This document shows positions 3,958-8,708 of a stretch of DNA of 64,000 nucleotides, one piece after another. The stretch is from Synechocystis sp. PCC 6714 (GTDB lineage Bacteria; Cyanobacteriota; Cyanobacteriia; Cyanobacteriales; Microcystaceae). Both the position numbers and the translations under genes were made by a program. Under the pieces are notes generated by a model. The model saw only the letters and a list, made by a program, of their open reading frames with translations. It had not been told where the DNA came from and did no database searches. Numbering within the stretch: position 1 is the stretch's first letter; every line of letters begins with the position of its first letter. The stretch is from the NCBI RefSeq assembly GCF_000478825.2, contig NZ_CP007542.1:2728001-2792000 (forward strand), given 5' to 3'.

Positions 3958-4053
3958 TGCCAGTATGCCATTGATGAAGTTAGGGGTGGATTGACGGTTT
4001 CAGACTGGGAAAAAGTGTGATCATAGGGGACAGTGTTTTTCCCCATCGTCCCT

Positions 4054-5415
4054 ATGTCGGCTCCCCCTTCCTTCACAGCCTTGGCCCAGGCCGTCAACCA
4101 GCCCGAAATTGGCTTTGATTCCCAAAATCCCCCCCCCCAGGCCGTGTTGGATAGCTGTGTCCACTGCGGCTTTTGCTTAAATACCTGCCCCAGCTACCGG
4201 ATTATTGGCAAGGAAACCGATTCCCCCCGGGGCCGCATTTATCTAATGAATGGCATTAACCAAGGCCAAGCCAGTTTGGATGCCACCACCATTCAGCATT
4301 TTGACAGTTGCTTAGGTTGTTTGGCCTGCGTCAGCGCCTGTCCTTCCGGGGTGCAGTATGACCGGTTGATCTCCGCCACCCGGCCCCAGGTAGAGCGTAA
4401 CTATAACCGTCCCTTTGGCGATCGCCTATTGCGGGGGATCATTTTTAACTTATTTCCCTATCCCTGGCGGTTGCGCTTATTGTTGCCCCTGCTCTGGGTT
4501 TACCAAAATTGTGGTTTACAAAAATTAGTCCAGGCCACGGGCTTATTAAGCAGATTTTTCCCCCGTTTAGCGGCCATGGAAAGTATTTTGCCCCGGGTTA
4601 CGGCCGCTTCTTTTCGAGACAATTACCCCACGGAAATTCCAGCCCAGGGGGAAAAGCGTTACCGAGTGGGGGTAATTCTTGGTTGCGTACAAAGATTGTT
4701 TTTCTCCCCCGTCAATGAAGCCACTGTCCGGGTTTTAACCGCCAACGGTTGTGAAGTGGTGATCCCCAAATCCCAAGGTTGTTGCGCTGCCCTCCCCGCC
4801 CACCAAGGACAAACAGACCAAGCCCAGGCGATCGCCAGGCAAATGATCGACAGCTTTGCCGACACAGAGGTGGACTACATTGTCATTAATGCCGCTGGTT
4901 GTGGCCATACATTGAAGGAATATCATCATATCTTGGCCGACGATGCCGAATATTTGCCCAAAGCCCAAGCCTTTGTTAGTAAAGTACGAGACATTAATGA
5001 GTTTCTCATCGAAGTAGGGTTAACTGAGGATCTCCAACCTGTCACGACAGAAACGATCCCAGTGGTGTACCAAGACGCCTGTCATCTGATCCACGGTCAA
5101 AAAATCAGTCTCCAACCCCGACAGTTAATTGCCCAAATTCCCCATTTACAATTGCGGGAACCCTTGGATGCGGCCCTCTGTTGTGGCAGTGCCGGAGTCT
5201 ATAACATGCTCCAACCGGCCGTAGCGGAGGAATTGGGACAGCAAAAAGTCAATAATCTCCGTCAAACCGGTGCCCGATTGATTATTTCCAGCAACCCTGG
5301 CTGTTCCCTACAAATCCAAAAACACCTGAAAAAACAAGGTCATAATCTAGGGGTTATTCACCCCATTCAATTGCTTGATCTCTCAATTCGGGGTGAGAAA
5401 CTAACCAATCTTTAA
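4054..5415 (+). CDS. glcF: Glycolate oxidase iron-sulfur subunit GlcF
   Basis: GlcF passes electrons from the flavin subunits of glycolate dehydrogenase towards the quinone pool during photorespiratory glycolate oxidation. Two 4Fe-4S ferredoxin motifs sit near the N-terminus: CVHCGFCLNTCPSY (about residues 35-48) and CLGCLACVSACPSG (about 87-100). Two cysteine-rich CCG domains follow: GCVQRL to QGCCAALPAHQG to NAAGCGH, and YQDACHLIHGQK to ALCCGSAGVYN to SSNPGCSLQ. ATG 4054 (MSAPPSF) was chosen over a GTG at 4033. Length (453 residues) fits the family. A related function as a lactate-utilisation LutA-type or heterodisulfide reductase-like subunit is possible, but GlcF is the closest fit. The catalytic GlcD is not in this window. 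Confidence 0.85.
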   Translation: MSAPPSFTALAQAVNQPEIGFDSQNPPPQAVLDSCVHCGFCLNTCPSYRIIGKETDSPRGRIYLMNGINQGQASLDATTIQHFDSCLGCLACVSACPSGVQYDRLISATRPQVERNYNRPFGDRLLRGIIFNLFPYPWRLRLLLPLLWVYQNCGLQKLVQATGLLSRFFPRLAAMESILPRVTAASFRDNYPTEIPAQGEKRYRVGVILGCVQRLFFSPVNEATVRVLTANGCEVVIPKSQGCCAALPAHQGQTDQAQAIARQMIDSFADTEVDYIVINAAGCGHTLKEYHHILADDAEYLPKAQAFVSKVRDINEFLIEVGLTEDLQPVTTETIPVVYQDACHLIHGQKISLQPRQLIAQIPHLQLREPLDAALCCGSAGVYNMLQPAVAEELGQQKVNNLRQTGARLIISSNPGCSLQIQKHLKKQGHNLGVIHPIQLLDLSIRGEKLTNL

Positions 5416-5740: not shown

Positions 5741-6202
5741 ATGTCTGCCTTACCTAAACCGTCCTTTCCCCCTCGCCGCACCGCCGTAATTTCCCCGGTA
5801 CCTACGCCCATAGCAAATTCCACCCGGGAGTCCCTGCCCACGTCCTTACAGGTGTTATTGCGGTTTCAACAGGTAACTTCTTGTATTACCTTGGGAGTGA
5901 TGGCAACGGTTTTGGGAGTCTATGGTTGGACGGTATATACTCCCACCCTCTGGAGTAGGGAATATCAACAACTTAAAGCCCTCCAGCAAACCGAACGCCA
6001 ACTGATCACCAACACTGAGGCGATCAAACACCAATTAGCCCAGGAAGCTAACCAACCCAGCTCCGGTCTAGTCAAAGCTAGCCCCAGCCAAAACATTTTT
6101 CTGCCGGCCCAGCCTACTTCCGTCCCGTCGGCCGAAAATGATGTTGCGGCCGTTGCCTCTGTTGCTAATTTCAATCTTGCCACTGGCCCCGTTGCCTACT
6201 AA
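5741..6202 (+). CDS. Small bitopic coiled-coil protein upstream of ftsI (FtsL-like candidate)
   Basis: This 153-residue protein has no strong family match that I recognise. The layout is a proline-rich N-terminus of ~45 residues (PPRRTAVISPVPTP), one membrane segment at about 50-72 (SCITLGVMATVLGVYGWTVYT), then a coiled-coil-prone stretch (YQQLKALQQTERQLITNTEA) and a low-complexity Pro/Ser/Ala tail. A short cytoplasmic part, one membrane helix and a periplasmic coiled coil is the topology of FtsL/DivIC. In many bacteria ftsL sits directly before ftsI, and here the next gene is ftsI, 12 bp downstream. FtsL function is inference from topology and position, not from sequence identity. It could instead be another envelope protein. 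Confidence 0.6.
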   Translation: MSALPKPSFPPRRTAVISPVPTPIANSTRESLPTSLQVLLRFQQVTSCITLGVMATVLGVYGWTVYTPTLWSREYQQLKALQQTERQLITNTEAIKHQLAQEANQPSSGLVKASPSQNIFLPAQPTSVPSAENDVAAVASVANFNLATGPVAY

Positions 6203-6214
6203 ACAATTCGAGCC

Positions 6215-8038
6215 ATGGACTCCTCCCACCTTAAATTAAATTCTTCAAAAGGCAATTCATCTCCTTTCACCAAGCACATTTCCCGGCAGGAAAGACAAAA
6301 ACAAAAATCCCAACAACAGGGAGTGCCGGTATTTCGTCTGCTATTGGTCTGGGGAATTCTTCTTTTGGCCATGGGGGGTTTAGCTTACCGTCTTTATCAA
6401 TTGCAAGTGGTGCAGGCCAATCGGCTTCAACGCATGGCTAAAGCTCAACAGAGCACTAGCATGCAACCCTATGTACCCCGCCGCTCCATTGTGGATAGCC
6501 AGGGCAATGTTTTAGCCACCGATCGCCTAACTTATACTTTGTTTGTCCATCCCCGTTACTTTGAAGCCACCAAGGAAATTACCAACCCCACGGACTACAT
6601 TGCCAGAGAACTAGCAACTATCTTAGGAGATGTAACCCCCGAACAGCTCAAAGAAAAATTTAAAGAAAAGGAATCGGGCATTAAACTAGCCACCGGCCTG
6701 AATGAGTCCCAAGCTGTCCGCATTGGTGCCCTGAGAATGGGGGGAGTGGATCTAGAAAAGCAATACAGTCGCTACTATCCCCAGGATGAAATGGCGGCGG
6801 ACATTGTTGGCTACGTGGATGGGGAACACCAGGGACAAGCGGGACTGGAACTGAGCCAAAGGGAGATTTTGGAGCGGGAAGTGGAAACCTACGCCATTCG
6901 CCGCACAGGGAAAGGGGTTGTTCTGCCGGATTCTTTACCGGATAACCTATTGCAGTCCAATGATTGGCAACTGCAGTTAACCATTGATATGCGTTTACAA
7001 AGGGCGGCCCGGGAATTGCTCAAAGCCCAGGTCAGTCAGCAAAAGGCTAAGCGGGGTACGGTGTTGGTGATGGACGCCCAGGATGGAGCCATCCTCGCCA
7101 TGGTCAATGAACCCACCTTTAACCCCAATGAATATTACAAAGCCAGGGTGGAATATTTCAAAAACTGGGCGGTGAGCGATCTGTACGAGCCGGGATCAAC
7201 CTTTAAGCCGGTGATTGTTGCCCTAGCGATGAATGAAGGGGCGGTCAAACCGAAAGATCGGCTCAATGATAGCGGTTCGATACGGGTGGGCCCCTGGACC
7301 ATTTCCAATGCTAGTAAAAGCGGAGCCGGTTTAATTACCGTTACCGAGGCCATTCGCTATTCCAGTAACGTGGTCATGGTGGCGATCGCCCGTCGTCTCA
7401 AGCCGGAACGGTACTATGAATTGTTGCAGGAAGTGGGTTTAGATAGCAGAACCGGCATTGATTTACCAGGGGAAGCAACCAATTACCTCAAGCCCAGACA
7501 AAGTTTTATGGACGATCCCATCGAACAGGCCACCACTTCCTTTGGCCAGGGTCTTTCCCTAACTCCTATCAAATTACTGCAACTCAACGCCATGTTGGCC
7601 AACGGCGGCAAGTTAGTTACGCCCCATGTGGTAAAAGGTTTGGTGGATGCCCGCAACCATCTCCACTGGCAACCGGATCATCCCATTAAACAAGTGGTGA
7701 AACCGGAAGTAGCCCATTCCGTAGTGCAAATGATGGAATCCGTGGTTAGCGGCGATGGTGGTACCGGTAAAGCAGCTCTGATTCCCGGTTATCGGGTGGG
7801 GGGAAAAACTGGTACAGCCCAAAAGGCCGGGCCTAGGGGAGGTTACCTAGCCAACGCCAAAATTACTAGCTTTGTTTCAGTGCTCCCGGTGGATAATCCC
7901 CGCTATGTGGTGGTAGCCATTATTGACGAACCGAAAGGAGCCAACGCCTATGGGGGAACAGTGGCCGCCCCAGTGGTAAAAAGTGTAATGGAAGCCCTAA
8001 TCGCCATTAAAGGCATTCCCCCCTCCCAAGCCAAATAG
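6215..8038 (+). CDS. ftsI: Penicillin-binding protein, FtsI/PBP3-type transpeptidase
   Basis: This is a class B PBP of 607 residues that cross-links septal peptidoglycan. It has a basic cytoplasmic N-terminus, one membrane helix at about 42-62 (LLLVWGILLLAMGGLAYRLY), a pedestal domain with RRSIVDSQGN and DIVGYVDGEHQGQAGLE, and the transpeptidase domain. The active-site motifs are present: STFK (serine nucleophile, in YEPGSTFKPV), SSN (in IRYSSNVVMV) and KTG (in VGGKTGTAQK). It lies 12 bp after the bitopic coiled-coil gene and is very likely co-transcribed with it. The length and absence of a glycosyltransferase domain match FtsI. A SpoVD-like PASTA tail is absent. Confidence 0.93.
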   Translation: MDSSHLKLNSSKGNSSPFTKHISRQERQKQKSQQQGVPVFRLLLVWGILLLAMGGLAYRLYQLQVVQANRLQRMAKAQQSTSMQPYVPRRSIVDSQGNVLATDRLTYTLFVHPRYFEATKEITNPTDYIARELATILGDVTPEQLKEKFKEKESGIKLATGLNESQAVRIGALRMGGVDLEKQYSRYYPQDEMAADIVGYVDGEHQGQAGLELSQREILEREVETYAIRRTGKGVVLPDSLPDNLLQSNDWQLQLTIDMRLQRAARELLKAQVSQQKAKRGTVLVMDAQDGAILAMVNEPTFNPNEYYKARVEYFKNWAVSDLYEPGSTFKPVIVALAMNEGAVKPKDRLNDSGSIRVGPWTISNASKSGAGLITVTEAIRYSSNVVMVAIARRLKPERYYELLQEVGLDSRTGIDLPGEATNYLKPRQSFMDDPIEQATTSFGQGLSLTPIKLLQLNAMLANGGKLVTPHVVKGLVDARNHLHWQPDHPIKQVVKPEVAHSVVQMMESVVSGDGGTGKAALIPGYRVGGKTGTAQKAGPRGGYLANAKITSFVSVLPVDNPRYVVVAIIDEPKGANAYGGTVAAPVVKSVMEALIAIKGIPPSQAK

Positions 8039-8078: not shown

Positions 8079-8708
8079 TCAGCGGACAAAGCTGCTAATG
8101 AGCCAGAGGATAATAAAAGTAATGGTGGCGGAAATTTGTTCTTGGTTGGAGCCGATCGCCACGTTAGCGCTCAGTAACAACTGCCCCAGTACGGTACCAA
8201 GAATAATCCCCACCAACAGGGCCCCTAGGCTGAGTAATAGGGCTTTACCAAATTTTCGTTGTTTACGATTGAGGAAGAAAATATTACCGAAAACCCCCAC
8301 CACCAACAGCAAAGACTGGATGGAACCACCGGCTCCCTGGGTGAACCAACTGACCAAGATAAGACCGGCAAAAAACGCAGCGGGCCAAAGAATATCGTTT
8401 TGGGAAGGCGTATCAAGGGAATTAGCTAACCAACTGGGGGCTGTGGGGGCTGGAATTGAGGGGAAACCATTGCCAGTACTTTCAGCTTGCCGTTCGGGGA
8501 AGCGAATTTTTTCCGGTACTTTAATTTTTCCTTCCTGCCGTAGTCGTAGACGCTCCATAATAATCGCATCGTAGGCCGCCTCCACCTCTTCCAACAACTG
8601 GGTGTTTCCCTCATATTCCCGAAGCAGGCGAACTTTCACTGCTTGGATATCTTCAAAGGTTGCTTCCTCCGATATGCCCAACATCTGATAGGGAGTTTGT
8701 TCACCCAT
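8079..8708 (-). CDS. CPP1-like membrane protein with J-like domain (DUF3353)
   Basis: CPP1 is a chaperone-like protein that stabilises light-dependent protochlorophyllide oxidoreductase in plant plastids. Cyanobacterial homologues are shorter membrane proteins. The first ~75 residues resemble a degenerate J-domain (PYQMLGISEEATFEDIQAVK...VEAAYDAIIMERLRLR) without the HPD tripeptide. A linker and three to four hydrophobic segments follow (ILWPAAFFAGLILVSW, SLLLVVGVFGNIFFL, LLSLGALLVGIILGTVLG, ATITFIILWLISSF). The gene converges on ftsI with a 40 bp gap. Family membership is fairly clear; the link to chlorophyll synthesis is known only from homologues. Confidence 0.75.
   Translation of the reverse strand: MGEQTPYQMLGISEEATFEDIQAVKVRLLREYEGNTQLLEEVEAAYDAIIMERLRLRQEGKIKVPEKIRFPERQAESTGNGFPSIPAPTAPSWLANSLDTPSQNDILWPAAFFAGLILVSWFTQGAGGSIQSLLLVVGVFGNIFFLNRKQRKFGKALLLSLGALLVGIILGTVLGQLLLSANVAIGSNQEQISATITFIILWLISSFVR

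Follow-up and report, generated by a model that had tools for sequence, protein, structure and literature searches.

Does the cell division machinery of cyanobacteria include FtsL? The question is raised by a small gene directly before ftsI in Synechocystis sp. PCC 6714. The stretch of DNA analysed here, called the window below, comprises 64,000 nucleotides of this genome. We take its class to be Cyanobacteriia and the other classes of the phylum to be non-photosynthetic sister classes. According to excerpts of two papers, cyanobacteria lack FtsL and FtsB, or neither has been detected in them (PMC7766704, PMC4748335). A table in the first of these gives FtsW and FtsQ of Synechocystis PCC 6803 as Slr1267 and Sll1632. 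An excerpt of a third states that cyanobacteria generally have every dcw gene but mraZ and ftsA; without naming the gene, it implies that ftsL is generally present but dispersed (PMC8871954). A table in the available part of a Prochlorothrix draft-genome report lists ftsL and ftsB along with ftsA and ZipA (PMC5069947). The latter two partial sources therefore count against full novelty of a cyanobacterial ftsL. Within the open-licence literature, no paper was found that assigns the gene treated here. On the gene order and sequence comparisons described below, this gene is very probably the cyanobacterial ftsL, orthologous to the gene between rsmH (mraW) and ftsI in the dcw cluster.

The candidate ftsL occupies positions 5741-6202 of the window on the forward strand; it starts with ATG, encodes a bitopic protein of 153 amino acids, and its TAA stop codon ends at 6202. 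The ATG of the next gene follows at 6215, leaving a gap of 12 nt. This conserved downstream partner (6215-8038, forward strand, 607 amino acids) is ftsI, encoding the septal class B PBP, as judged from Pfam Transpeptidase (6.6e-91) and PBP_dimer (1.2e-17); by sequence, the solved chain nearest to it (8.8e-76) is an FtsI that entry 8bh1 also contains. The preliminary description of this DNA had reported a bitopic frame of 153 residues 12 nt before ftsI, and the coordinates and the Pfam matches bear this out. Around the candidate, the ftsI side of the dcw slot is present in the window without the rsmH side. Positions 4033-5415 encode an Fe-S protein with Pfam CCG and Fer4, presumably a GlcF-type protein (glycolate oxidase); on the opposite strand, 8079-8708 encodes a CPP1-like protein (Pfam 1.6e-67). 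The candidate is a single-copy gene in the source genome (3.74 Mb). Since its product is a member of a conserved protein family, the frame is, judged by its relatives, more than a chance ORF.

Domain libraries do not name this product. Pfam and NCBIfam scans gave nothing over cut-off for it, Pfam FtsL (PF04999) had no match in it, and its weak library matches, all below cut-off, were GspM (E 0.014), TPR_21 (0.069) and Coa3_cc (0.32). A PDB sequence search with the family profile found two weak matches, both to unrelated proteins (best E 0.53). The Pfam FtsL model seldom passes its cut-off in control genomes either, which may account for FtsL having been missed: PF04999 was over cut-off in 0/146 genomes of the phylum, but also in just 1/14 control genomes, three of the 14 being archaea, so that a miss carries little weight. 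Pfam also names none of five proteins found at the corresponding place in other classes of the phylum.

The layout of the candidate is that of FtsL, with a short N-terminus, a membrane helix that runs on into a periplasmic helix, and an extended end. As read from the sequence, an N-terminus of about 44 amino acids with four Arg (residues 1-44, 5741-5872), gap-rich and variable in alignments, precedes the one hydrophobic stretch, a membrane helix at about residues 45-65 (5873-5935); the N-terminus would lie inside the cell. After it come a periplasmic helix of residues 66-104 (5936-6052), delimited by alignments and an AlphaFold2 model, an extended proline-bearing segment of residues 110-125 (LVKASPSQNIFLPAQP; 6068-6115), which hhalign pairs with the region that follows the helix in FtsL, and a disordered, variable tail of low pLDDT (residues 126-153, 6116-6199) ending in -VAY (6191-6199). 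All these elements are on the forward strand. AlphaFold2, run on a 32-row alignment, predicts a single helix 34-104 that includes the membrane helix, with mean pLDDT of 92-98 in 10-residue blocks over residues 31-100; a part at about pLDDT 71-75 and then a low-confidence tail follow, and the model contains no second helix of at least 4 residues and no strand of at least 3. A membrane helix followed by a periplasmic coiled coil had been proposed for this protein. The single helix agrees with that proposal, but the stretch beyond the membrane that might form a coiled coil is short, about residues 66-104, and the remainder is extended or disordered.

Few residues are invariant. In an alignment of 43 rows the sole invariant residue is W71, a few residues above the membrane; in the 32-row alignment W71 is not invariant, and L78 and Y153 are. 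Among 17 nearer relatives, Y61, T64 and V65 of the membrane helix and P115, F120 and L121 of the extended segment do not vary. In the Pseudomonas aeruginosa structure, as given in an excerpt of its description, FtsL has, besides its membrane helix, a long periplasmic helix in contact with the FtsI pedestal; its conserved R38 sits between FtsW and the anchor of FtsI, and a short helix and a strand lie at FtsQ and at the transpeptidase domain of FtsI (PMC7614612). The order of elements in the modelled candidate agrees with that of this FtsL, and one might guess that W71 is the counterpart of R38. In addition, a read-through FtsL-FtsI model was built from an alignment of six in-frame read-through rows and 20 FtsI-only rows. 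It reached pTM 0.72, with pLDDT of about 70 for the candidate helix. Foldseek and VIA-align listed FtsI-type chains for this model; the VIA ranges span the FtsI part alone, and the matches are therefore silent on the FtsL part.

The family is found throughout the class. Below, X denotes the candidate ftsL gene or its counterparts before ftsI, and L and G numbers denote sampled loci and genomes. With the single protein as query, 142/386 genomes of the phylum gave a match at E<=0.01; even at the weak end (E 0.001-0.01), several matches, such as those in G378, G372 and G324, lay beside ftsI. An ftsI match at 1e-90 was present in 187/386 genomes, 186 of them in the class of the window. In the genomes inspected of family f25, which we read as marine picocyanobacteria, a bitopic ORF of 142-177 amino acids lies upstream of ftsI; most of these genomes had no match to the single protein. 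A profile of 43 members (A1) detected X in 184/186 sampled genomes of the class, a count that is partly circular because the 43 rows come from these genomes; the weakest match was 1.2e-13, and the two misses were a genome in which the contig ends (G048) and one with no X near ftsI (G118). Among named cyanobacterial loci fetched through ftsI, X was present in 31 of 33, one exception starting at a contig end (L155) and the other having no X nearby (L178). Unicellular Prochlorococcus and Synechococcus also have the family.

One line of evidence for FtsL is position. The linkage to ftsI that the preliminary description had asked to see conserved is found across cyanobacteria: the matches listed place both genes in 166 genomes of the class, and in 155 of these X precedes ftsI on its strand by no more than 2.5 kb, whereas in 11 it lies away from ftsI. 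An earlier count gave 121/132, with a median distance of 283 bases between the X and ftsI matches and a largest of 1660. In Hormoscilla sp. GUM202 (L160:791-1543), X is about 2 kb upstream of ftsI and does not adjoin it. The classical place of ftsL between rsmH and ftsI is seen in full in six cyanobacterial loci, namely Candidatus Cyanaurora vandensis (L179) and 5/5 sampled genomes of family f24 (L271, L272, L273, L274, L279). In two more, the 2/2 sampled members of family f27 (L108 = G177, L284 = G332), X follows rsmH and ftsI is elsewhere, so that in these loci the dcw cluster is broken on the other side. Of 56 loci searched for rsmH, 9 (8 genomes) have it, in each case adjoining X. Eight of the other nine unlinked copies of X were inspected (L283 was left out), and all of them lie among other genes. 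Against the FtsL reading stand the 11 genomes with X away from ftsI, the recovery of rsmH in no more than 9 of 56 loci, and L178 and G118, where X is missing near ftsI.

The same arrangement occurs outside the class. In six (L081, L084-L088) of ten ftsI loci from other classes, a bitopic ORF lies between rsmH and ftsI. Three f31 genomes of another class (L079, L080, L082) have neither rsmH nor a bitopic gene in the roughly 1.4 kb before ftsI, and one locus (L083) has 153 bases upstream of ftsI, too few for gene order to be judged. rsmH was confirmed in all eight other-class loci with X. Being linked to ftsI and, elsewhere, to rsmH, X is tied to both flanks of the classical ftsL slot. The gene might instead encode a conserved membrane protein with a role outside the divisome, for example in secretion or the envelope, that is merely co-transcribed with ftsI, and its sole weak library matches, GspM, TPR_21 and Coa3_cc, would suit such a protein. 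Linkage to two separate dcw genes in different lineages argues against this, as does the homology to FtsL, and we hold it to be extremely improbable.

That homology, another line of evidence for the FtsL assignment, was seen by searches with and without reference to position. A position-blind search with the cyanobacterial profile recovered the rsmH-X-ftsI gene in three of eight other-class genomes: G050 (E 7.3e-5), G010 (6.8e-4) and G038 (0.083). The first two of these are the best two profile matches outside the class. At the X locus of the other five genomes (G001, G004, G007, G021, G026) the profile had no match. Eight outside-class genomes in all had a profile match at E<=0.1; in those other than G050, G010 and G038, five in number, the matches were short frames of 36-86 amino acids, and a decoy, a lipoprotein in G004, scored E 0.001. 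Comparison of profiles by hhalign gave a probability of 84 for the 43-member profile against five other-class X proteins. With trimmed profiles it was 92.9 (score 45.9) against seven other-class X proteins, L088 having been left out of this set, and 64 (score 31.8) against 27 proteins at the FtsL position in other phyla; untrimmed, the two values were 92.1 and 56.4. The score was reached by 0/150 shuffles in either comparison (maximum 31.5 and 24.4, respectively), where column permutation was confined to each of four blocks (N-terminal, membrane, coil and tail). In the comparison with other phyla, what aligns comes after the membrane helix, so this is not a membrane-helix match. The two yardstick sets, compared with each other, gave a probability of 98. 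The other-phyla set came from 47 non-cyanobacterial loci, in which 30 upstream genes were picked (17 loci had no pick under the filters) and three (L200, L202, L218) were removed by eye as not FtsL-like.

These comparisons also bear on convergence. The protein could be a partner of FtsI specific to cyanobacteria, sharing topology and position with FtsL and no common descent. It has no Pfam FtsL match, the A..LGM signature of the other-phyla set, the canonical FtsL motif, is not visible in the cyanobacterial family, the match to other phyla is modest, and X escaped the position-blind search in five of eight genomes. Against this stand the other-class genes recovered without position, including the two best matches outside the class, the shuffles, none of which reached the score with membrane and coil blocks kept, and a C-terminal aromatic residue common to cyanobacterial and other-class X. 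On balance we consider such convergence very unlikely, and common descent with FtsL explains the candidate better.

A closer relative has to be weighed as well, since FtsB (DivIC) and FtsL are both short bitopic proteins and distant relatives. A combined yardstick profile (A7), which takes 28 of 34 proteins overall and 21 of the 27 from other phyla, matches solved FtsB chains (3.9e-7) slightly better than FtsL chains (7.7e-6). The two families are thus close by sequence, and therefore the name FtsL rests on position and on the profile comparison with DivIC. Could the candidate be the cyanobacterial FtsB/DivIC? Pfam DivIC is over cut-off in 67/146 genomes of the phylum, comprising 0/64 in the class of the window and 67/82 in other classes, so one of the two proteins is missing there, and this would fit. 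Within the class, weak DivIC matches reach 1.3e-4 at best; the control Synechococcus elongatus has a DivIC match that may or may not exceed the cut-off. The window protein itself gave no DivIC row up to E 10 with filters on. In hhalign, a set of 30 other-class DivIC proteins, which includes one wrong ORF (L233), scored 17.8 (probability 1.5) against the cyanobacterial profile, compared with 45.9 for the other-class X proteins. In 12 seven-member subsets of each set, the mean score was 22.9 for FtsL of other phyla and 14.3 for DivIC. Moreover, the place of the gene is that of ftsL, and five of the eight other-class genomes with X (G004, G010, G021, G026, G038) also carry DivIC over cut-off. An FtsB/DivIC identity is therefore very unlikely in our estimate. 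The FtsL candidacy put forward in the preliminary description draws support from gene order and from profile homology to FtsL and none to DivIC/FtsB. As for FtsB, either it was lost when the class arose, or it lies beyond recognition by the Pfam model.

A further feature of the family, new to this work, is the conserved [GA]Y end of cyanobacterial X. All 32 aligned members (the window sequence and HMM-picked loci) finish in Tyr, preceded by Gly (29) or Ala (3), whereas positions further in from the C-terminus are variable. Members from L001-L102 were left out of this count, since an [AGS][YF] ending had been required when they were chosen; a few of them end in SY. The codons of the end show synonymous variation, and each of the 11 copies unlinked to ftsI ends in GY; the end is thus conserved as protein sequence and is no side effect of the start of ftsI. 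X proteins of other classes have a C-terminal aromatic residue in 8/8 cases (GF, AY, AY, GF, GF, AW, GY, GF), compared with 1/27 in the set from other phyla. As speculation on its partner and role, the free Gly/Ala-aromatic end on its long, variable periplasmic tail could be a phylum-specific short linear motif of this FtsL. It would dock on a protein in the periplasm, such as FtsQ, FtsW or a PDZ-type protease governing the FtsL level, and would take over part of the activation by FtsB and FtsN, FtsB having been lost. We offer this as a tentative possibility that is rather doubtful at present.

How the candidate FtsL would work, including its binding, midcell localization and essentiality, we infer from FtsL of other bacteria. 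It would reside in the plasma membrane with its N-terminus inside, and its periplasmic helix would pack against both FtsW and the pedestal of FtsI. The extended segment that follows may lie near the FtsI transpeptidase domain and FtsQ. The protein would recruit FtsWI and switch on septal synthesis, probably without a recognisable FtsB. As to the gene, the dcw cluster was presumably broken in most cyanobacteria, and the ftsL-ftsI pair alone may have stayed together. Should FtsL indeed occur across the whole class, cyanobacteria would have a standard FtsL-type activator of FtsWI in their divisome, and the question would shift to FtsB. The gene is small and was found by position, and its role can be tested in Synechocystis or Synechococcus.

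Finally, the candidate can be set beside known systems. It shares with FtsL of the FtsWIQBL core, solved in 8bh1 from P. aeruginosa and in 8hhf, which we take to be from E. coli, the succession of an N-terminal membrane helix, a periplasmic helix and an extended segment, and a gene that adjoins ftsI, in some cyanobacteria between rsmH and ftsI. Unlike that FtsL, it stays below the Pfam cut-off, has no visible A..LGM and no recognisable FtsB partner, and carries an added variable tail with the conserved C-terminal Gly/Ala-Tyr. CyDiv (All2320) of Anabaena, a proposed FtsB/DivIC-like protein, resembles the candidate in its proposed division role and in having one membrane helix and a coiled coil, according to an excerpt of its description (PMC4748335). 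In the same excerpt, the membrane helix of CyDiv is near the C-terminus, its N-terminus is periplasmic and its gene is exclusive to filamentous cyanobacteria (PMC4748335). The candidate is set apart from CyDiv so described, since its membrane helix is in the first half of the protein and its family occurs also in unicellular strains. The other-class counterpart, encoded between rsmH and ftsI, differs from the candidate in having an A..LGM-like region after the helix and in the DivIC over cut-off that accompanies it in five of eight genomes, but it is of similar length, it matches the cyanobacterial profile with the hhalign probability of 92.9 given above, and in all eight cases it shares the C-terminal aromatic residue.
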